Shown here piece by piece: positions 21,454-45,951 of a stretch of 64,000 bases of DNA. The notes under the pieces are model-generated. The model was not told where the DNA came from and did no database searches. It saw only the letters and a list, made by a program, of their open reading frames with translations. A program made the position numbers and the translations under genes. How positions within the stretch are numbered: position 1 is the first letter of the stretch; each line of letters begins with the position of its first letter. The stretch comes from Pseudomonadota bacterium (GTDB taxonomy: Bacteria > Pseudomonadota > Gammaproteobacteria > Burkholderiales > Burkholderiaceae_C). The DNA is taken from positions 1-64,000 of the forward strand of contig JAVHYA010000002.1 in the NCBI GenBank assembly GCA_031119395.1, given 5' to 3'.

Positions 21454-21816
21454 TTATTCGCCCTCGACGGTCCATTCGACGTTGCCGGCGCCCTCGCCCG
21501 TCGGCAAACCGTGAATCTGTTCCTTGAGTTTCGCGCTCGCGTGGAAGGTCGCCACGCGACGTGCGCCGATCGGGATGTGTTCGCCAGTGCGCGGGTTGCG
21601 GCCCGGCCGCGGCGCCTTGGTGCGGATCTGGAAGTTGCCGAAGCCCGAGATCTTGACGTCGTCACCTTCGATCAGGCGCGCCGCGATGAGGTCGAAGAAG
21701 GCCTCGACCATGTCCTTCGCCTCGCGCTTGTTCAAGCCGATCTGCTCGAACAGCAGGTCGGCCAACTGCGCCTTGGTGAGCGCCGGCGTCTCGAGGGCTT
21801 CGATGGTGAATTCCAT
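21454..21816 (-). CDS. ihfA: Integration host factor subunit alpha
   Basis: 120 residues. An HU/IHF fold with the DNA-binding arm [19 protein letters not shown] and the proline that intercalates into bent DNA. It acts with IhfB to bend DNA at promoters and recombination sites. The N-terminus [23 protein letters not shown] and the acidic C-terminal tail ([12 protein letters not shown]) are longer than in E. coli IhfA (99 aa). It lies 16 bases after pheT, the same order as in E. coli. Confidence 0.95.
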
Positions 21817-21832
21817 GGCCGGTATCTCCTGC

Positions 21833-24259
21833 TCAGGCACGCAGGCGCGCGCCGACGGCCGCCGTGGCCTGTGCCAACACGGCCTGCACGGCCACATCGA
21901 CCTGTTCGTCGGTCAGCGAACTCGCGTCGCTCTGGAAGCTCAGGCGCACCGCCAGGCTCTTCTCGCCTTCGGCCAGACCGCCCGTCGACGCGGCGCCCGG
22001 TTGCGGACGGTAGATGTCGAACAACACCGCGTCGCGCAGCAGGCCCTGGGTGGGCGCGGCGCGCGCCGCATCGAGCACGGCACCTGCCGCGACCGACTCG
22101 GCCACCACGAGCGCGATGTCGCGCTCCACGGCCTGGTGCTTGGCCACCGGCTGCGCCACAGGCACGGCGCGCGCCGTCACGGCGTCGAGATCCAGTTCGA
22201 ACAGCACCGGCGCCTGGGCGAAGTCCCACTGCTGGCGCCAGCGCGGATGCAGTTCGCCGACCACGCCGATCTCGCGGCCGCCGAGCAGCACGCGCGCGGC
22301 GCGGCCGGGATGCAGCGCGGGATGCTCGGTGCGTTCGAAGGTCGGCAAGGCGGGCGCCAGCAGTGCCTCCACGTCGCCCTTGGCGTCATAGAAATCGGCG
22401 CGCTGCGGCTTGCCTTCCCAGCGTGCCGCCTGCGCATCGCCCCAGGCGAGCCCGGCCACGCGCATCGGCTGGCGCACACCCTTGACCGTGCTGTCGGTGG
22501 TGGCCACGCCGGCATCGCGCAGGAAGACACGGCCGAGTTCGAACACGCGCACACGCGGCGCCTTGCGGTCCAGGTTGAACTTGAGCACCTGCAGCAAAGA
22601 GCCGACAAGCGACGAACGCATCACGCTCATCTGGCTGGCGATGGGATTGAGGAGTTTCACCGGGTCGGCGTTGCCGGCCAGGTCGCGCTCCCATTCGGCC
22701 TCGACGAAGCTGAAGTTGATCGTCTCCTGGTAGCCCAGTGCCGCAAGGCGGTGGCGCACGTCGAAGCGGCTGCGCTGGCCCTCGGGCCGCACGCGGGCCG
22801 TGATCGGCGCCAATGGCGGCGTGGTGGGCAGGTGCTGGTAGCCGACCAGCCGGGCCACTTCCTCGATCAGGTCTTCCTCGATCGCGAGGTCGAAGCGGTG
22901 CGGCGGCGGCGTGACCGTGATCGTGCCATCGCCCTCCTCCAGCGAAAAGCCAAGACGCCGGAGCGCGTCGGCGCACTGCGCCTGCGTCAGCGGCATGCCG
23001 ATGACGCGCGCGGCGCGCGCCACGCGCAGGGTCACGGGCTTGCGTTCGGGGAGCTTGAGCGTCTGGTCGTCGATCGGACCGGCCTGGCCGCCGCAGATCT
23101 CCTGGACGAGCTGCGTGATGCGCTCGATCACCTGCACCGTACGGCTCGGGTCGACGCCGCGCTCGTAGCGGTGACCGGCATCGGTCGAGAAGTTGAAGCG
23201 GCGCGAACGGCCCTGCACCGCCTCGGGCCACCAGAAGGCAGCCTCGACATAGATGTTGCGCGTGTCGTCGGACACCGAGGTCGCATCGCCACCCATGATG
23301 CCGGCCAGCGATTCCACTTCCTCGTCATCGGCGATCACACCGACCTTGTCATCGATGGTGATCGTGTTGCCGTTGAGCAGCTTGAGCTGCTCCCCTTCGC
23401 GGCCCCAGCGCACGGTGAGCCCGCCATGGATCTTGTCGAGGTCGAAGATGTGCGAGGGCTGGCCGTACTCGAACATCACGTAGTTCGAGATGTCGACCAG
23501 CGCCGTCACGCTGCGCTGCCCGCAGCGCGCAAGGCGGTCGACCATCCACGCGGGCGTGTTCGCCTGCGTGTTCACGCCGCGCACGATGCGGCCGGAGAAG
23601 CGGCCGCACAGATCCGCAGCCTCGACCTTCACGGCCAGCTTGTCGTCGTGTTGCGGGGCCACGGGCTCGATGGCCGGCGTGCGCAACGGTGTGCCCGTGA
23701 GCGCAGCCAGCTCGCGCGCGATGCCATAGACCGACAGGCCATGGGCCAGGTTGGGCGTGAGCTTGAGCGTGAGCAGCGTGTCGTCCAGGCGCAGCCACTC
23801 GCGGATGTCGGCGCCGACGGGCGCCTCGCCGGCCAGTTCGAGCAGGCCGCCGTGGTCTTCACTGAGCTGCAGTTCGCGCGCCGAGCACAACATGCCCTGG
23901 CTCTCGACGCCGCGCAGCTTGCCCAGCTTGATGTGGAAGGGCTTGCCGTCCTCGCCCGGCGGCAGTTCGGCACCGACCAGCGCCGTGGGCACCTTGATGC
24001 CGACGCGCGCATTCGGCGCGCCGCAGACGATGTTGAGCAAGTCGCCCTTCCCCACGTCCACCTGGCACACCCGCAGGCGGTCGGCGTTGGGGTGCTGCAC
24101 GGCTTCCTTGATCTCGCCCACGACGATCTTGGTGAATGGCGGTGCGGCAGGACGGCGCTCCTCGACCTCGAAGCCGCCCATGGTCAGCGTGTCGGCCAGT
24201 TCCTCGCTCGTGAGCGGCGGGTTGCAGAACTCGCGCAACCAGGACTCGGGAAATTGCAT
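21833..24259 (-). CDS. pheT: Phenylalanine-tRNA ligase beta subunit
   Basis: 808 residues, typical length. The order is the N-terminal tRNA-binding domain ([22 protein letters not shown]), B3/B4 editing domain, B5 domain and C-terminal anticodon-binding (FDX-ACB) domain. It forms an alpha2-beta2 enzyme with PheS. It lies 42 bases after pheS. The long antisense reading frames over this gene are third-position GC shadows. Confidence 0.97.
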
Positions 24260-24301
24260 TGCTACGGTCTCTTTGAATCTATTCGGGAAGGCGCCCGGGA
24301 A

Positions 24302-25372
24302 TCACTGGAACTGCGAGAGGAAGCGCAGATCGCCGTCGAAGAACAGGCGCAGGTCGTTCACGCCGTAGCGCAGCATCGTGAGGCGGTCGGGCCCCATGCC
24401 GAAGGCGAAGCCGATGTAGCGTTCGGGGTCCAGTCCCATGTTGCGCACGACGTTCGGGTGCACCTGGCCGGAGCCCGCGACCTCGAGCCACCGCCCGGCC
24501 AGCGGGCCGCTCTGGAACTGGATGTCGATCTCGGCGCTGGGCTCCGTGAAGGGGAAGAAACTGGGGCGAAAGCGCAGCACCAGGTCGTCGCTCTCGAAGA
24601 AGGTGCGGCAGAAGTCGGTGAACACGACCTTCAGGTCCTTGAAGCTCACGTTCGCGCCCAGCCACAGGCCCTCGCACTGGTGGAACATGGGCGAATGCGT
24701 GGCGTCGCTGTCCACGCGGTAGGTGCGGCCCGGGGCAATCACGCGGATTTCGGGCGCGGTCACCGAGGGGTCCTTGGCCGCCGCCTCGAACAGCGCAGCG
24801 TGCTTCTTCACCTGCTGGTGGGCGTAGCGCACCTGCATCGGGCTGGTGTGAGGCCGCAGGTTGTAGGGAATGCCGTCGTCGCCCTGGATGTCGACGTAGA
24901 AGGTGTCCTGCATCGAGCGGGCCGGGTGGTTCGGCGGGTTGTTCAGCGACGTGAACGAATGCCAGTCGCTCTCGATCTCGGGCCCGTCGGCCACGTCGAA
25001 GCCCATGCTGCCGAAGATCGCCTCGATGCGCTCCAGCGTGCGGCTGACCGGATGCAGCCCACCCGCGGCGCGGCGCCTCCCGGGCAGGGTGACGTCCAGC
25101 GCCTCGGCGCGCAGTTGGACGGCCAGTTCCTCGTCGGCCAACTGCTGGCGACGCTCCGTCAGTGCGGCCTCGATGGCCTGCTTCGCGACGTTGATGGCGG
25201 CGCCGCGGGACTTCTTCTCGTCGACGCTGAGCTGGGCCATGCCCTTCATCAGTTCGGTCACGCGGCCCGACTTGCCGAGAAACTGCGCCTTGGCGTTTTC
25301 GAGTTCCGCCGGCGCCTTGGCGTCGGCAAAGGCGGCACGGGCGTTGGCGACCAGGGTGTCCAGCTCGTTCAT
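24302..25372 (-). CDS. pheS: Phenylalanine-tRNA ligase alpha subunit
   Basis: 356 residues. A coiled-coil N-terminus (about 1-90) and the class II catalytic core, with motif 2 around [23 protein letters not shown] and motif 3 [17 protein letters not shown]. It charges tRNA-Phe together with PheT. It begins only about 25 bases after an intrinsic terminator that follows rplT, so it depends on read-through. Confidence 0.97.
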
Positions 25373-25396
25373 GGGATCGGGAATGCGAAAGGGAAA

Positions 25397-25431
25397 TAAA
25401 AAAGGGCTGGTGCTTTGAAGCGCCAGCCCTT
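25397..25431 (-). terminator. Intrinsic terminator (probable attenuator) between rplT and pheS
   Basis: On the minus strand: AAGGGCTGG-CGC / GCA-CCAGCCCTT stem with a TTCAAA-type loop followed by TTTTTTATTT. It ends about 25 bases before the pheS ATG. It lies inside the translation operon and so must be leaky or conditional. Its 5' side overlaps the arm of repeat copy 6. Confidence 0.8.
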
Positions 25432-25466
25432 GTACCGTGGGCGCGAGCAGCTATCGAAACGATAGC
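25404..25466 (-). repeat. Dispersed palindromic repeat, copy 6 (between rplT and pheS)
   Basis: GCTATCGAAACGATAGC at 25450-25466 is a perfect-arm palindrome. On the minus strand it continues TGCTCGCGCCCACGG and then into the terminator stem GGGCTGGCGC. Confidence 0.75.
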
Positions 25467-25480
25467 AACCCGCAGCGGGA

Positions 25481-25840
25481 TCAAGCAGCCAGCTTGGCCT
25501 TGACCTGCTCCACGATGCCGGCGAATGCGGCCTTGTCGTGCACGGCGATATCGGCGAGAACCTTGCGGTCGATCTCGATACCGGCCTTGCGGATGCCGTT
25601 GGCGAACTGGCTGTAGGTCAGGCCCAGTTCACGCGAGGCGGCGTTGATACGCGCGATCCACAGCTGGCGGAACACGCGCTTCTTGGTACGACGGTCACGG
25701 TAGGCGTACTGGCCCGCCTTCATCACCGCCTGCTTGGCGATGCGGAAGACGTTGCCGCGACGGCCGCGGAAGCCCTTGGCAAGGGCGAGAACCTTCTTGT
25801 GGCGGGCGCGAGCGGTTACACCACGTTTGACGCGAGGCAT
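25481..25840 (-). CDS. rplT: 50S ribosomal protein L20
   Basis: 119 residues, standard length. The sequence [21 protein letters not shown] and the C-terminal [20 protein letters not shown] are typical of L20. It is needed early in 50S assembly. In E. coli L20 represses its own operon; no such site was resolved here. It lies 28 bases after rpmI. Confidence 0.97.
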
Positions 25841-25868
25841 ATTGAATCCTTCCTAGTTCGTCGGTTGA

Positions 25869-26072
25869 TCAAATGCCTTGGCCGGGCAGCATGGCGGCCA
25901 TCGAAACCATGTTGGTCTCGTGAACCGTCACCGCACCGCGCAGGTGGCGCTTGTTCTTGGTGGTCTTCTTGGTCAGGATGTGACGCTTGAAGGCTTGACC
26001 GCGCTTGACGGTGCCACCGGGACGAACGCGAAAGCGCTTCTTCGCGCTGCTCTTGGTCTTCATTTTGGGCAT
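25869..26072 (-). CDS. rpmI: 50S ribosomal protein L35
   Basis: 67 residues: [19 protein letters not shown], then [18 protein letters not shown], as in all L35 proteins. The start is the ATG before PKMKTK, with an AAAGGAG site 8 bases upstream. It sits between infC and rplT in the conserved order. Confidence 0.97.
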
Positions 26073-26236
26073 GTGCATGCTCCTTTTTGTTGTGCTCGCA
26101 AGGCGCCGTGGATGCTCCACGGACTTGTTGGCCCTCGAGGCACTTCTTCATCCCGCGGCAGCCCACCCGAAGGCCGGCTGCCGCGAAATCCCTTCTTCAA
26201 CTGGTGGCCCGCTCGGAGGCGGGCGCCTGCCGCACT

Positions 26237-26827
26237 TCAGGCGGCTGCAGGCTCCGTCGCCGACTTCGCCGCGCCACCCGCCTTCTTGCGGCCCGGCGCG
26301 ATCATCATGATCATCTGCCGGCCTTCGAGCTTGGGAAACTGCTCCACAACGATCGCATCACCCAGTTCATCGCGGATGCGCTGCAGGAGCGCCAGGCCGA
26401 GTTCCTGGTGCGTGATTTCACGCCCGCGAAAGCGCAAGGTGATCTTGCACTTGTCGCCTTCGTCCAGGAAGCGCCGGATGTTGCGCATCTTGATGTTGTA
26501 GTCGCCGTCGTCGGTCCCGGGCCGGAACTTGATTTCCTTGACCTCGATGACCTTCTGCTTCGACTTCGCCTCGGCCGCTTTCTTCTGCTCGAGAAACTTG
26601 AACTTGCCGTACTCGATCAGCCGGCAGACCGGCGGATTGGCGGCGGCCACCGTCTCGACCAAATCCACGTCGTATTCGCCCGCAAGGCGCAATGCCTCCT
26701 GCAAGCTGACAACGCCCAGCGCTTCGTTGTCGGGGCCGAAAAGGCGGACTTCCGGGGCCATGATTTCCCGGTTCAGGCGGTGTTGGCGTTCCTCGCGCTG
26801 GCGGCGGTCGCGAAATGCAGTAGCGAT
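26237..26827 (-). CDS. infC: Translation initiation factor IF-3, ATC start codon
   Basis: 196 residues when read from an ATC codon at 26825-26827. This gives the N-terminus (I)[20 protein letters not shown] followed by [14 protein letters not shown], which matches full-length IF-3. The first ATG (26761) would remove 22 conserved residues. AAGGA lies about 10 bases before the ATC. Rare start codons are a known feature of infC (AUU in E. coli), where IF-3 discriminates against its own start and so regulates itself. The two-domain structure and the linker [15 protein letters not shown] are intact. Confidence 0.93.
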
Positions 26828-26935: not shown

Positions 26936-28843
26936 TCAACGCTTGTGAGAGATGTCGTCGGCGATCTTTTGGGAGAACGCTTCCACCGACATTGCACCGA
27001 GGTCGGTATTGCCCCGGGCGCGCACTGCGACGGCGCCGGCTTCCTTTTCCTTGTCGCCCACGACAACGATGTAAGGCAGCTTTTGCAACGAATGCTTGCG
27101 TATTTTATACGTGATCTTCTCGTTGTGCAGGTCAAGCACCACTCTAAACCCTTGATTCCGCAGCGTTTTCGCCACTTCGGCGGCGTAATCGGCCTGTCCT
27201 TCGCTGATGTTGAGCACCGCGACCTGCACCGGCGCCAGCCAAGCGGGCAAGGCGCCGGCATGGTGCTCGACCAGCATGCCGATGAAGCGCTCCAGGCTGC
27301 CGACGATCGCGCGATGCAGCATCACGGGGTGCGCACGGCCGCTGGACTCGGTCACATAGTCGGCCCCGAGGCGCTCCGCCGTGTTGAAGTCCACCTGCAT
27401 CGTGCCGCACTGCCACTGGCGGCCGATGGCATCGCGCAGCGTGTACTCGATCTTGGGGCCGTAGAAGGCGCCGTCGCCCGGCGCGATGACGAAGTCGACG
27501 CCGGAACGGCGCAGCGCTTCCATCACCGCGTGCTCGGCCTTGTCCCACAGTTCGTCGGAACCGACCCGGTTGTCCGGACGTGTCGCGACCTTGTAGAGGA
27601 TGTCCGTGAACCCGAAGTCGGCGTACACCTTCTGCAACTGCGCCGTGTACGCCACGCACTCGTCGAGGATCTGGTCCTCCGTGCAGAAGATGTGGCCATC
27701 GTCCTGCGTGAAGCCGCGCACGCGCATGATCCCGTGCAGCGCGCCACTGGGCTCGTTGCGATGGCACTGGCCGAATTCACCATAGCGGATCGGCAGGTCG
27801 CGGTAGCTGCGCAGGTCGTTCTTGAAGATGATGACGTGCCCGGGGCAGTTCATCGGCTTGAGCGCGTAGTCGCGCTTCTCCGATTCCGTCGTGAACATGT
27901 TCTCGCGGTAGTTCTGCCAGTGGCCCGTCTTCTCCCACAGGCTCTTGTCGAGGATCTGCGGGCCCTTCACCTCCTGGTAGCCCGTCTCGCGGTACACCGT
28001 GCGCATGTACTGCTCCACCGCCTGCCACAGCGCCCATCCCTTGGGGTGCCAGAACACGAGGCCCGGCGCCACTTCGTCGATGTGGTACAGGTCCAGCTCC
28101 TTGCCCAGCTTGCGGTGGTCGCGCTTCTCGGCCTCCTCGATGCGCTGGATGTACGCGTCGAGCTGCTTCTTGTCGGCCCAGGCCGTGCCGTAGATCCGCT
28201 GCAGTTGCTCGTTCTTGGCATCGCCGCGCCAGTAGGCGCCTGCCAGCTTCGTCAGCTTGAACACCTTCAGGAAGCGCGTGTTCGGCACGTGCGGGCCACG
28301 GCACATGTCGACGTATTCCTGGTGGTAGTACAGGCCCATCGCCTGCTCGTCGGGCATGTCCTCCACCAGACGCAGCTTGTAGTCCTCCCCGCGCGCCTTG
28401 AAGACCTCGATCACCTCGGCCCGCGGCGTCATCTTCTTGACGACGTCGTAGTCCTGGGCAATGAGCTCCTTCATGCGCTGCTCGATGGCCGCCATGTCTT
28501 CCGGCGTGAACGGACGCTCGTAGGCGATGTCGTAGTAGAAGCCCTCCTCGATCACCGGGCCGATCACCATCTTTGCCGTGGGATAGAGCTGCTTCACCGC
28601 GTGCCCGACCAGGTGGGCCGTCGAGTGGCGGATGATCTCCAGGCCCTCGTCGTCCTTCGGCGTGATGATCTGGAGCCTGGCGTCGTGGTCGATGATGTCG
28701 CTGGCATCGACGAGCCGACCGTCCACCTTGCCGGCGACCGTCATCTTGGCGAGCCCGGGGCCGATGGACTGGGCCACATCGGCCACCGAGACGGGACCGG
28801 GGAACTCGCGGCGCGAGTTGTCGGGAAGCGTGATCTGGATCAT
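26936..28843 (-). CDS. thrS: Threonine-tRNA ligase
   Basis: 635 residues, full length. TGS domain (1-65), editing domain with [17 protein letters not shown] and the class II core follow. The zinc ligands are expected from [12 protein letters not shown], the later histidine in [11 protein letters not shown] and [11 protein letters not shown], and the C-terminal anticodon domain is complete. It is the first gene of the operon thrS-infC-rpmI-rplT-pheS-pheT-ihfA-merR. A leader ORF and terminator upstream form a putative attenuator. Confidence 0.97.
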
Positions 28844-28860
28844 GTGAAAACCTGGTTCGG

Positions 28861-28892
28861 AAAAACAAAAAGCGCGGCCGGGAGCCGCGCTT
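28861..28892 (-). terminator. Attenuator terminator upstream of thrS
   Basis: On the minus strand a perfect 9-base stem AAGCGCGGC / GCCGCGCTT with loop TCCCG is followed by TTTTTGTTTTT. It ends 17 bases before the thrS ATG, after the leader ORF at 28933-28995. Its 5' arm and loop can instead pair with 28926-28941 at the leader stop codon (GGCCGG, AGCC and GCGC blocks), forming an antiterminator. Confidence 0.88.
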
Positions 28893-28932
28893 AGCTGGGG
28901 TTCATGGGCTGGTGCGTACCAGCGTGCGCGGG

Positions 28933-28995
28933 CTACCGGCCCATTCCCTTCGGAAAGAGGCCGCTCGATGCGGTGCCGGTAGTTCGCGGTGTCAT
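28933..28995 (-). CDS. Putative thrS leader peptide (Thr-rich, 20 aa)
   Basis: A 20-codon [23 protein letters not shown], stop TAG. Four of codons 2-8 are threonine (ACA, ACT, ACC, ACC). AAAGG lies 10 bases before the ATG. The Thr-codon segment CTACCGGC (28975-28982) is the exact complement of GCCGGTAG (28933-28940), the last codons and stop; that second segment can alternatively pair with the 5' arm of the terminator. This is the 1:2 / 2:3 / 3:4 arrangement of trp/thr-type attenuators. Function is inferred from architecture alone. Confidence 0.75.
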
Positions 28996-29047
28996 AACCA
29001 CAGTGCCTTTCTCGCCCTTGTTGGTGGGGTGACGGTCGAAGCTTTCG

Positions 29048-29053
29048 ATTCTA
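29048..29053 (-). promoter_or_regulatory. Candidate -10 of the thrS operon
   Basis: TAGAAT on the minus strand, about 50 bases before the leader ATG and after the aceA terminator. No clear -35. The position would give an RNA leader of about 200 bases ahead of thrS. Confidence 0.45.
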
Positions 29054-29093
29054 GCGCGCCGCTCGACGGCCCGCCGGCAGCCGCCCCAGCACG

Positions 29094-29119
29094 AAAAAGC
29101 CCGGTCGGCGCCGGGCTTT
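29094..29119 (-). terminator. Intrinsic terminator after aceA
   Basis: Minus-strand stem AAAGCCCGG / CCGGGCTTT with loop CGCCGA and a TTTTT tail, 27 bases after the aceA stop. It isolates thrS from aceA. Confidence 0.88.
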
Positions 29120-29145
29120 CGGATCACGGCCGGACGGCCGATCAC

Positions 29146-30477
29146 TCAGTGGAACTGCTCTTCTTCCGTCGAGCCCGTCAGCGCCTTCACGCTCGACGAA
29201 CCGCCCTGGATCACGGTGGTCACGTCGTCGAAGTAACCCGCGCCGACTTCCTGCTGGTGCGACACGAAGGTGTAGCCCTGCTCGCGAGCGGCGAACTCCG
29301 GCTCCTGCACCATCTCGACGTAGTGCTTCATGCCTTCGCCGTTGGCATAGGCATGGGCAAACTTGAAGGTGTTGTACCAGTTGACGTGGATGCCGGCCAA
29401 CGTGATGAACTGGTACTTGTACCCAAGCGCCGAGAGTTCTTCCTGGAAGCGGGCGATGGTCTTGTCGTCCAGGTTCTTCTTCCAATTGAACGAGGGCGAG
29501 CAGTTGTACGACAGCAGCTTGCCGGGCGAGGCGGCGTGCACGGCCTGCGCGAATTCGCGGGCGAAGCCGAGGTCGGGCGTGCCGGTCTCGCACCACACCA
29601 GGTCTGCGTAGGGCGCATAGGCGACGCCGCGGCTGATGGCCTGTTCCAGACCGTTCTTCACGCGGTAGAAGCCTTCCTGCGTGCGCTCGCCCGTCAGGAA
29701 GGGCTTGTCGTTCGCGTCATGGTCGGAGGTGATCAGGTTGGCCGCCTCCGCGTCGGTGCGCGCCAGCACGATGGTCGACACACCCATGACGTCAGCCGCG
29801 AAACGGGCGGAAATCAGCTTCTCGCAGGCTTCCTGCGTCGGCACCAGCACCTTGCCGCCCATGTGGCCGCACTTCTTCACGGCCGCGAGCTGGTCCTCGA
29901 AGTGCACGCCGGCGGCGCCCGAGGCAATCATGTTCTTCATCAGTTCGAAGGCGTTCAGCACGCCGCCGAAACCGGCTTCGGCATCCGCCACGATCGGCAG
30001 GAAGTAGTCGATGAATTCCTTGTCGCCAGGATTCACGCCACGCGACCACTGGATCTCGTCGGCGCGCTTGAAGGTGTTGTTGATGCGGCGGACCATCGTC
30101 GGCACCGAGTCGTACGCGTACAGCGACTGGTCGGGGTACATGGTCTCGGAGGTGTTGCCGTCGGCAGCCACCTGCCAGCCGGACAGGTACACGGCTTCCA
30201 GGCCTGCCTTGGCCTGCTGCATGGCCTGGCCGGCGGTGATGGCGCCGAAGGCGTTGACATAGCCCTTCTTGGCGCCACCGTTGATCTTCTCCCACAGCTT
30301 CTCGGCGCCGCGCTTGGCGAGCGTGTGCTCGATCGGCAGCGAGCCGCGCAGGCGGACGACGTCCGCGGCGCTGTAGCCACGCTTGATGCCCTTCCAGCGG
30401 GGGTTGGTCGCCCAGTCCTTCTCGAGGGCGGCGATCTGCTGTTCACGGCTGAGTTGTTCGGTGATGGTCTGAGGCAT
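29146..30477 (-). CDS. aceA: Isocitrate lyase
   Basis: 443 residues. It cleaves isocitrate to glyoxylate and succinate in the glyoxylate shunt, needed for growth on acetate, fatty acids or stored polyhydroxybutyrate. The catalytic signature is KKCGHMGGK (about residue 195), with the substrate loop [10 protein letters not shown] and WETGTPDL-like [13 protein letters not shown] chose the ATG before [13 protein letters not shown], matching the usual start. It is transcribed alone and ends in a terminator. The 250 bases upstream hold three inverted repeats. Confidence 0.96.
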
Positions 30478-45649: not shown

Positions 45650-45689
45650 CGGCCGGCTGCCTGCATCCGACCACGGATGTGGCAGCAAG

Positions 45690-45853
45690 CGTTCTCAGGG
45701 CGGGGTGCAACTCCCCACCGGCGGTGATGGCGGCGCATGGCATCCATGCAAGGCACGAGCCCGCGAGCGCCTTCCGCCCGCAAGGGGCGGAAGGGTCAGC
45801 AGACCCGGTGCGATTCCGGGGCCGACGGTCACAGTCCGGATGAAAGAGAGCGC
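45690..45853 (+). ncRNA. FMN riboswitch (RFN element)
   Basis: The conserved blocks are all present in order: TTCTCAGGGCGGGGTG, ACTCCCCACCGGCGGTGAT, AGCCCGCGAGCGC, GGTCAGCAGACCCGGTG, GATTCCGGGGCCGACGGT and CAGTCCGGATGAAAGAGA. One variable arm is an extended hairpin, CTTCCGCCC...GGGGCGGAAG. It binds FMN and should repress ribH. The roughly 100 bases between aptamer and ATG show no clear U-tract terminator, so control is probably at translation. Confidence 0.97.
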
Positions 45854-45951
45854 GATCGCCGGGGCCGGCGTGCGTCTTCCTGCGTGGGGCGCGCGGTGGC
45901 CATGCGCTCGTGCGCCCTGATTCATGTTCCTCTCTTCATTCCAGGATCACC

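Follow-up and report, generated by a model that had tools for sequence, protein, structure and literature searches.

The stretch of DNA analyzed here (the window) comprises 64,000 nucleotides (nt) of contig JAVHYA010000002.1, from a bacterium of the GTDB family Burkholderiaceae_C, and our subject is the leader that precedes thrS, the threonine--tRNA ligase gene, on its minus strand. An initial annotation, made from the sequence alone, had proposed a ribosome-mediated attenuator in front of an operon thrS-infC-rpmI-rplT-pheST-ihfA, and NCBIfam indeed assigns thrS, infC, rpmI, rplT, pheS, pheT and ihfA. The anatomy that it described is likewise present, including the 20-codon open reading frame (ORF) with its four threonine codons (Table 1). 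Inside this ORF, CTACCGGC (28982-28975) is the exact complement of GCCGGTAG (28940-28933), with the stop codon inside the latter, and the stretch 28940-28926 is also able to pair with 28890-28876, through CCGCGC:GCGCGG and GCCGG:CCGGC. Between the leader ORF and the first gene lies an intrinsic terminator, as in leader-peptide attenuators: a terminator scan lists a hairpin of 10 pairs with a T tail, 28892-28870, as the sole site in 28700-29300 (shuffles 0.7, standard deviation (s.d.) 0.8). The upstream gene encodes isocitrate lyase (NCBIfam) and has a hairpin of its own, which separates it from the leader; judged by this layout, the thrS hairpin need therefore not be the terminator of that gene.

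Table 1. Features of the thrS leader and its surroundings in the window.
Feature	Coordinates	Strand	Basis
T-tailed hairpin 3' of the upstream isocitrate lyase gene, AAGCCCGG...CCGGGCTTTTT	29094..29118	-	by eye; absent from terminator scan list
Putative -10 element TAGAAT of the thrS operon promoter	29048..29053	-	sequence
AAAGG, probable ribosome-binding site of the leader ORF, 10 nt 5' of the ATG	29006..29010	-	conserved columns
Near-invariant 18-nt core GGTTATGACACCGCGAAC, spanning the start codon and codons 2-5	28982..28999	-	family conservation
Leader ORF, 20 codons, Thr at 2, 5, 6 and 8, stop TAG	28933..28995	-	sequence
Segment 1, CGCGAACTACCGGC	28975..28988	-	duplex and fold predictions
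Segment 2, GCCGGTAGCCCGCGC, overlapping the stop codon	28926..28940	-	predicted pairing with segments 1 and 3
Small hairpin GCTGGT-ACGC-ACCAGC between segments 2 and 3	28908..28923	-	fold of window leader
Segment 3, 5' arm of the terminator, AAGCGCGGCT	28883..28892	-	terminator scan
Segment 4, 3' arm of the terminator, GGCCGCGCTT	28870..28879	-	terminator scan; arm covariation
T tract TTTTTGTTTTT of the intrinsic terminator	28861..28871	-	sequence, terminator scan
thrS, threonine--tRNA ligase, first gene of the operon, gammaproteobacterial-type	26936..28843	-	NCBIfam TIGR00418, tree, flanking-gene comparison
infC, rpmI, rplT, pheS, pheT, ihfA, 3' of thrS, same orientation	21454..26761	-	NCBIfam

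To assess the conservation of the leader, the DNA 5' of thrS was taken from 110 genomes of the same family (109 genera), each with a thrS match and with the window as one row; rows are cited below by L numbers where needed. L137, of the window's genus and with the same ORF, was excluded except from the core-match count, the ORF listing and the single-leader shuffle test. L192, where no T run was found, was excluded from the single-leader shuffle, partner-swap, ribosome-position fold, masking and core-hexamer tests, and L168, with its short spacing, from the partner-swap test. Around an ATG, GGTTATGACACCGCGAAC was matched at 15 or more of its 18 positions in 92 of the 110 genomes, and at all 18 in 84; among the genomes with fewer than 16 matches, one reached 14, one 13, and the rest at most 11. 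In these 92 leaders, the ribosome-binding-site columns -15 to -11 read A (97%), A (95%), A (72%), G (95%) and G (74%), so that a short, translated-looking ORF with its own ribosome-binding site stands before the operon in 92 of 110 genomes, and a conserved terminator arm is followed by a T run in 91 of the 92. The 18 core-less genomes include three variant leaders recognized by eye (L185, L197 with a GTG start, and L202), and a recognisable leader ORF was found in 95 of the 110 overall. Thus the leader elements are real and beyond chance, as the ORF, its frame and its segments recur across the family. The 18-mer was single-copy in each of the genomes having it, 33 of 60, with the window's genome included; the pattern GTTATGACACCGCNRACT occurred in 3 of 276 class-sample genomes, all three of the same family, and in none of the 273 outside it; and a second site of AAGG-N3-10-GGTTATGAC, sought in the window's genome, was not found. 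Transcription of the operon may start near 29041, as suggested by the putative -10 element, and a TANMMT hexamer lies 75-20 nt 5' of the leader ATG in 75 of 91 family leaders (reverse strand 7, shuffles 6.95). A strict sigma-70 scan of the locus found no promoter, and the -35 element would therefore be weak or absent.

The threonine codons are tied to the reading frame of the ORF. From codon 6 to the stop codon, 216 of 847 in-frame triplets are ACN, compared with 9 and 19 of 756 in the other two frames and an expectation of 7.5% from base composition; the codons of the cognate amino acid are thus enriched in the ORF's own frame, and the alignment across family and order, for which the initial annotation had asked, shows conservation of both the Thr codons and their frame. 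Threonine occupies codon 6 in 68 of 91 leaders (ACG 33, ACC 21, ACA 12, ACT 2; another residue in 23) and codon 7 in 49 of 91. As all four third bases of Thr codons are used at these two positions, it is the amino acid threonine that is under selection in the leader ORF. Upstream of them the picture is a different one, with rare codons that are fixed: codon 2 is ACA in 89 of 91 leaders, codon 4 CGA in 87, and codon 5 ACT in 80, the other 11 having ACG. In thrS of the same genomes, ACA and ACT make up 2.9% and 3.7% of the Thr codons, and CGA 1.5% of the Arg codons.

Next we consider the competing stems. The window leader (28855-29000) gave a better fold than any of 200 dinucleotide shuffles (z -2.9), and the strongest duplex between the start of the ORF and the downstream stretch reaches -27.9 kcal/mol (p 0.03 in shuffles). 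The 1:2 pairing forms in the free fold, and p<=0.05 against shuffles is reached for both 1:2 and 2:3. Across the family, several forms of segment 2 occur at the stop codon (GTTCGCGCC, TAGTCCGCGCGCC, TAGTCGGCCGCGGC and GCCGGTAGCCCGCGC), and covariation was measured by swapping partners between genera (1000 swaps, n 89), with reversed segment 2 as control. The two arms of the terminator, 3:4, covary clearly (own versus swapped z -6.7, with none of the 1000 swaps as good). Pairing 2:3 covaries weakly (z -3.7, 0/1000; reversed control z -2.4, 10/1000), and 1:2 exceeds in strength its counterpart with segment 2 reversed (-16.1 versus -12.6 kcal/mol). Segment 2 is hence predicted to pair with both the ORF segment and the terminator arm, as attenuation demands, with 1:2 lacking covariation and 2:3 little above controls. 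Among close relatives of the window, 24 rows have the core (L270 being the window's own locus), with 16 distinct ORFs overall; 1:2 comprises 8-9 pairs in 14 of these rows (CTACCGGC or CTACTGGC versus GCCGGTAG) and 4-6 pairs in 10. In L005, L263 and L274 the stop codon lies upstream, yet GCCGGTAG persists as untranslated sequence. When 90 leaders were aligned with MAFFT and folded with RNAalifold, the terminator was recovered and no clear 1:2 or 2:3 consensus emerged, because spacing and partners vary between genera. An AT-rich repeat, GCTAC..AATT.ATAG, between segment 2 and the terminator in L026, L071, L168, L171 and L225 is apparently tolerated.

We then modelled the switch at the stage preceding synthesis of arm 4, hiding everything up to ORF nt 28 to mimic a ribosome that has stalled at codon 5. 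The probability that the 5' arm of the terminator pairs with the segment-2 stretch was 0.90 in the masked and 0.34 in the free leader, compared with 0.80 and 0.58 when the stretch was shuffled. This corresponds to a switch difference of 0.56, versus 0.22 (s.d. 0.02) in the shuffled case, and a difference above 0.5 was seen in 54 of 90 leaders, versus 12-24 of 90 in 15 shuffled sets. The larger share of the excess lies in the free RNA (0.34 versus 0.58), where segment 2 is sequestered by 1:2. A ribosome placed at the stop codon leaves the terminator dominant in 85 of 89 leaders.

Considering the conserved Thr codons and frame, the covarying terminator arms, the shared segment 2 and a modelled switch exceeding that of shuffles, the interpretation offered by the initial annotation is supported. 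We find it very likely that the thrS leader is a ribosome-mediated (peptide) transcription attenuator, which senses charged tRNA-Thr and gates the entry of RNA polymerase into thrS-infC-rpmI-rplT-pheST-ihfA; the weak controls of 2:3 are the reason why we do not put this more firmly. The regulatory behavior, that is the stalling, the dependence on Thr-tRNA, the termination efficiency and the promoter, we infer from the sequence. With ample Thr-tRNA, the ribosome would read MTPRT... to the stop codon and cover segment 2, whereupon the 3:4 hairpin and the T tract would stop transcription. With scarce Thr-tRNA, it would wait at codon 5 or 6 (ACT, ACC) and cover segment 1, leaving segment 2 free to pair with segment 3, such that the terminator would be unable to form in time. 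Without a ribosome on the leader, 1:2 and 3:4 would form and transcription would stop as well.

Several observations weigh against such an attenuator. Threonine richness is not universal, with MTPRTWSFHSGL and MTPRTRRLLSQAL having T2 and T5 alone and MTPRTFLLITQAL only one more. Of the three stems whose covariation the initial annotation had asked to check, 3:4 covaries, 2:3 does so weakly, and 1:2 not at all (own -16.14 versus swapped -16.14 kcal/mol, z 0), the latter because segment 1 is nearly invariant. Pairing 2:3 is barely above its control (-14.7 versus -14.1 kcal/mol reversed), and its longest perfect matches are no longer. Single leaders are often non-significant: p<=0.05 was reached by 19 of 91 for 1:2, by 24 of 91 for 2:3, and by 8 of 91 for both. 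Masking of segment 1 lets shuffled stretches pair with segment 3 as well (0.80 versus 0.90), and in equilibrium folds of the full-length stalled RNA the terminator is still preferred in 77 of 90 leaders; the decision would thus have to be kinetic, made while arm 4 is being transcribed. Furthermore, GGTTATGACACCG, within the core, is conserved more than the attenuation mechanism needs. Finally, a T-tailed hairpin without an ORF precedes thrS in 11 of 110 relatives sorted by eye (L129, with only 205 nt upstream, L136, L139, L154, L163, L169, L175, L181, L186, L221 and L229), and neither hairpin nor ORF was seen by eye in 4 (L141, L183, L193 and L220).

The hairpin-only relatives are what the initial annotation had named as counter-evidence, and they do occur; as 95 of the 110 genomes have a recognisable leader ORF, we read them as probable losses of the ORF. 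They also lend some weight to an ordinary leaky terminator that keeps thrS at a constant level without sensing, as does the finding that a hairpin of this sort comes after a tRNA gene in several other families. Such a terminator leaves the ORF, its frame-specific Thr codons, the conserved ribosome-binding site and the switch beyond shuffles unexplained, and we regard it as very improbable. In L139, L169, L175, L186, L221 and other hairpin-only relatives, a TAAAAT hexamer is followed some 25-85 nt later by the conserved thrS hairpin, with no ORF.

Outside the family, short ORFs with Thr codons stand before thrS in part of the order. Of 160 genomes in the order sample, 156 had thrS; five of these belong to the window's family, and of the remaining 151 we read the DNA before thrS in 89. 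A rule requiring a short ORF with R/L/P-Thr after no more than 4 codons picked out 37 of the 89 (reverse strand 4; shuffles 8.1, maximum 12), two of which (L324 and L327) were discounted on inspection, and gave nothing in the other 52. An ORF with an exact CGA-AC after 0-4 codons preceded thrS in 29 of 89 (reverse strand 0; shuffles 1.1, maximum 3). Example peptides are MFRTSTTTQS, MQLNRTTTTS, MPRTRTTTGFFSRRG and MTTRTTTAG, and a tRNA gene, by eye a tRNA-Val, precedes many of these stretches. Xanthomonadaceae have a different, strongly conserved leader, AGGTGGC(C/T)CGCG...GGCC(G/T)AG(C/T)GTGCGACATG, seen by eye 100-300 nt before thrS (L011, L013, L014, L015, L017, L018, L019, L020, in part within 300 nt, L021 and L028), then a very short ORF with Thr-Thr in most (MSTTIAHR and alike; MSTINV in L018), and a T-run hairpin in most. 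It looks like an independent attenuator. In Pseudomonas (L022, L024, L032, L040 and L047), the last 60 nt before thrS include a hairpin GTG(A/G)CCTTTGGTA..GGTCAC shortly before AGGAGAGGAGG; by eye it resembles the anticodon arm of tRNA-Thr(GGU), right before the ribosome-binding site, and is perhaps an E. coli-like operator.

The translational operator of E. coli thrS is a tRNA-like element (PMC8058203), and the leader of the window would share with it the control of the same gene from the 5' leader. Here, too, ThrS could bind the leader for autoregulation via a tRNA-Thr-like element, with the ORF being incidental, and the Pseudomonas hairpin as well as the conservation of part of the leader at the nucleotide level beyond need would fit this. 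Yet the Thr enrichment is frame-specific, and no tRNA-like element, nor a mimic of the tRNA-Thr anticodon arm, was seen in the window leader, searched by eye only. An exchange of the enzyme also speaks against ThrS binding. In a FastTree phylogeny of 141 ThrS N-terminal parts, 13 Variovorax-type sequences (the window and L126-L137) group with 10 from Xanthomonadaceae or near and 5 from Pseudomonas (support 1.0), while the 95 other family genera stand apart, together with one sequence of another family (support 0.8). ThrS of the window is 72-77% identical to 11 Xanthomonadaceae-or-near rows and 68-73% to 13 wider-family rows outside the clade (L016, L031, L045, L050, L058, L060, L063, L066, L067, L069, L070, L072 and L080), whereas its IF3 shares 56-61% with the former and 71-85% with the wider-family rows; L010 (Comamonas) is unclear, at 78% and 79% in the ThrS/IF3 comparison. 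With ThrS being gammaproteobacterial-type and IF3 native, thrS was therefore exchanged while the leader on one side and infC on the other stayed native. Of 14 Variovorax-type genomes, 12 carry the native leader (the window, L126-L128, L130-L135, L137 and L084, the last placed here by 82% identity), and it is missing in L129, where the upstream DNA is cut short, and L136. That the leader outlived the exchange favors sensing by translation over binding of ThrS, as a sensor of tRNA charging is indifferent to a swap of thrS and an operator bound by the enzyme need not be; this is an argument rather than a proof. On this evidence, autoregulation by ThrS binding is in our view improbable.

Next we turn to the near-invariant core. 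Perfect complements within the leader exist for its hexamers CGCGAA and GCGAAC in 24 and 26 of 90 leaders (about 4.5 by chance) and for CGAACT in 6 of 90, slightly above the chance value of 2.1; the hexamers of GGTTATGACACCG have no more than expected by chance (0-2 of 90). Partners within the leader were thus found for the 3' part of the core only, and the GGTT before the ATG and the codons ACA-CCG-CGA are dispensable for peptide attenuation. The rare ACA (codon 2), CGA (codon 4) and ACT (codon 5) are probably retained because they delay the ribosome at the point of sensing, which is the likeliest reason for their fixity, although it covers the codons and not GGTT. It is possible, if doubtful, that the leader is more than a peptide attenuator: the core may be read in trans (by the initiating ribosome, initiator tRNA, ThrS, RNA polymerase or an RNA-binding protein), with leader translation as a second regulatory input, or the fixed CGA-ACT may be a tuned stall site, in which poor pairing of CGA in the ribosomal P site makes the A-site Thr codon more sharply read. 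Pairing of GGTTATGA over 8 nt with the CTCATAACCC arm of a tRNA-Met, which we take to be the initiator tRNA, was not significant, as shuffled motifs, compared with 30 of the genome's 38 tRNA matches, reached at least 8 in 63 of 300 cases. Resemblances to sigma-54 promoters (GG-N10-GC), an RNA polymerase pause consensus and the T-box were considered and dropped. The core poses the question why, across some eighty genera, rare codons and four bases before an ATG have stayed fixed.

The peptide attenuator in front of a tRNA ligase gene is an established type, and the E. coli trp, thr and pheST leaders are leader-peptide attenuators. The window leader has in common with these a short ORF with codons of the regulated amino acid, the 1:2/2:3/3:4 logic, a stop codon in segment 2 and a T-tailed terminator. 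Unlike them it precedes thrS, its near-universal Thr codons are 2 and 5 only, and it has a fixed 18-nt core with rare codons. We also considered a degenerate T-box, since TGACACCGCG resembles the T-box sequence TGGNACCGCG, agreeing with the consensus at 9 of 10 positions. No T-box is, however, among the Rfam matches up to E 10, the probable 5' end of the transcript leaves no room for stem I, and one of the two G for pairing with the tRNA CCA end is an A, rendering this explanation practically negligible. The Rfam scan had no family above cut-off at the leader locus, and a weak covariance-model match to RF02869 (ncS025; 26.8 bits, E 0.0073), under the cut-off of 46, was rejected. NcS25 itself, a small RNA of Burkholderia cenocepacia, lies at another locus, between BCAL3007 and BCAL3008 rather than in a thrS leader, and represses a porin (PMC10117139).

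For thrS itself, the initial annotation knew of no described peptide attenuator, which needs correction. In Streptomyces lividans, a leader peptide with two Thr, thrL, has been reported 5' of thrS without a clear terminator (PMC8079986). This Thr-containing peptide in front of the same gene is what the two leaders share; thrL differs in its peptide MKRVRPFLETTPGFVPAR, a leaderless start, and one hairpin without a U-rich tail, according to that paper. It is from Actinobacteria, and by eye has no similarity to the window leader. A survey of premature terminators, presumably that of Naville and Gautheret, is also relevant. In its main text, 'thrS' is absent and threonyl-tRNA synthetase is named once, for autoregulation in E. 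coli (PMC2965389). A 2017 study of B. cenocepacia reports 82 short RNAs from 5' untranslated regions, some at tRNA synthetase genes given by locus tag only (PMC5688073), and the available part of PMC11722255 has no mention of thrS. Within the open-licence literature searched, no description of this leader in Burkholderiales was found, and the sole Thr leader seen at thrS was that of S. lividans. The leader of the family is so a new and broad addition to a kind already reported in S. lividans.

Two further elements were seen elsewhere in the window. Between rplT and pheS (25480-25373), a perfect repeat GCTATCG-TTT-CGATAGC is followed by a hairpin GGGCTGG...CCAGCCC with TTTTTTATTT; this element is terminator-like, with no clear Phe leader ORF by eye. 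An FMN (flavin mononucleotide) riboswitch lies at 45687-45855 on the plus strand (100.6 bits).

The exchange of thrS under a kept leader represents a natural test, which points to amino-acid supply rather than the enzyme as the signal. Taken with what was seen in Pseudomonas and Xanthomonadaceae, the leader of the window suggests that different leader devices control thrS in different proteobacteria. If the attenuator is real, most sampled genera of the family would have threonine-responsive control over an operon that also makes IF3, L35, L20, PheRS and IHF-alpha.
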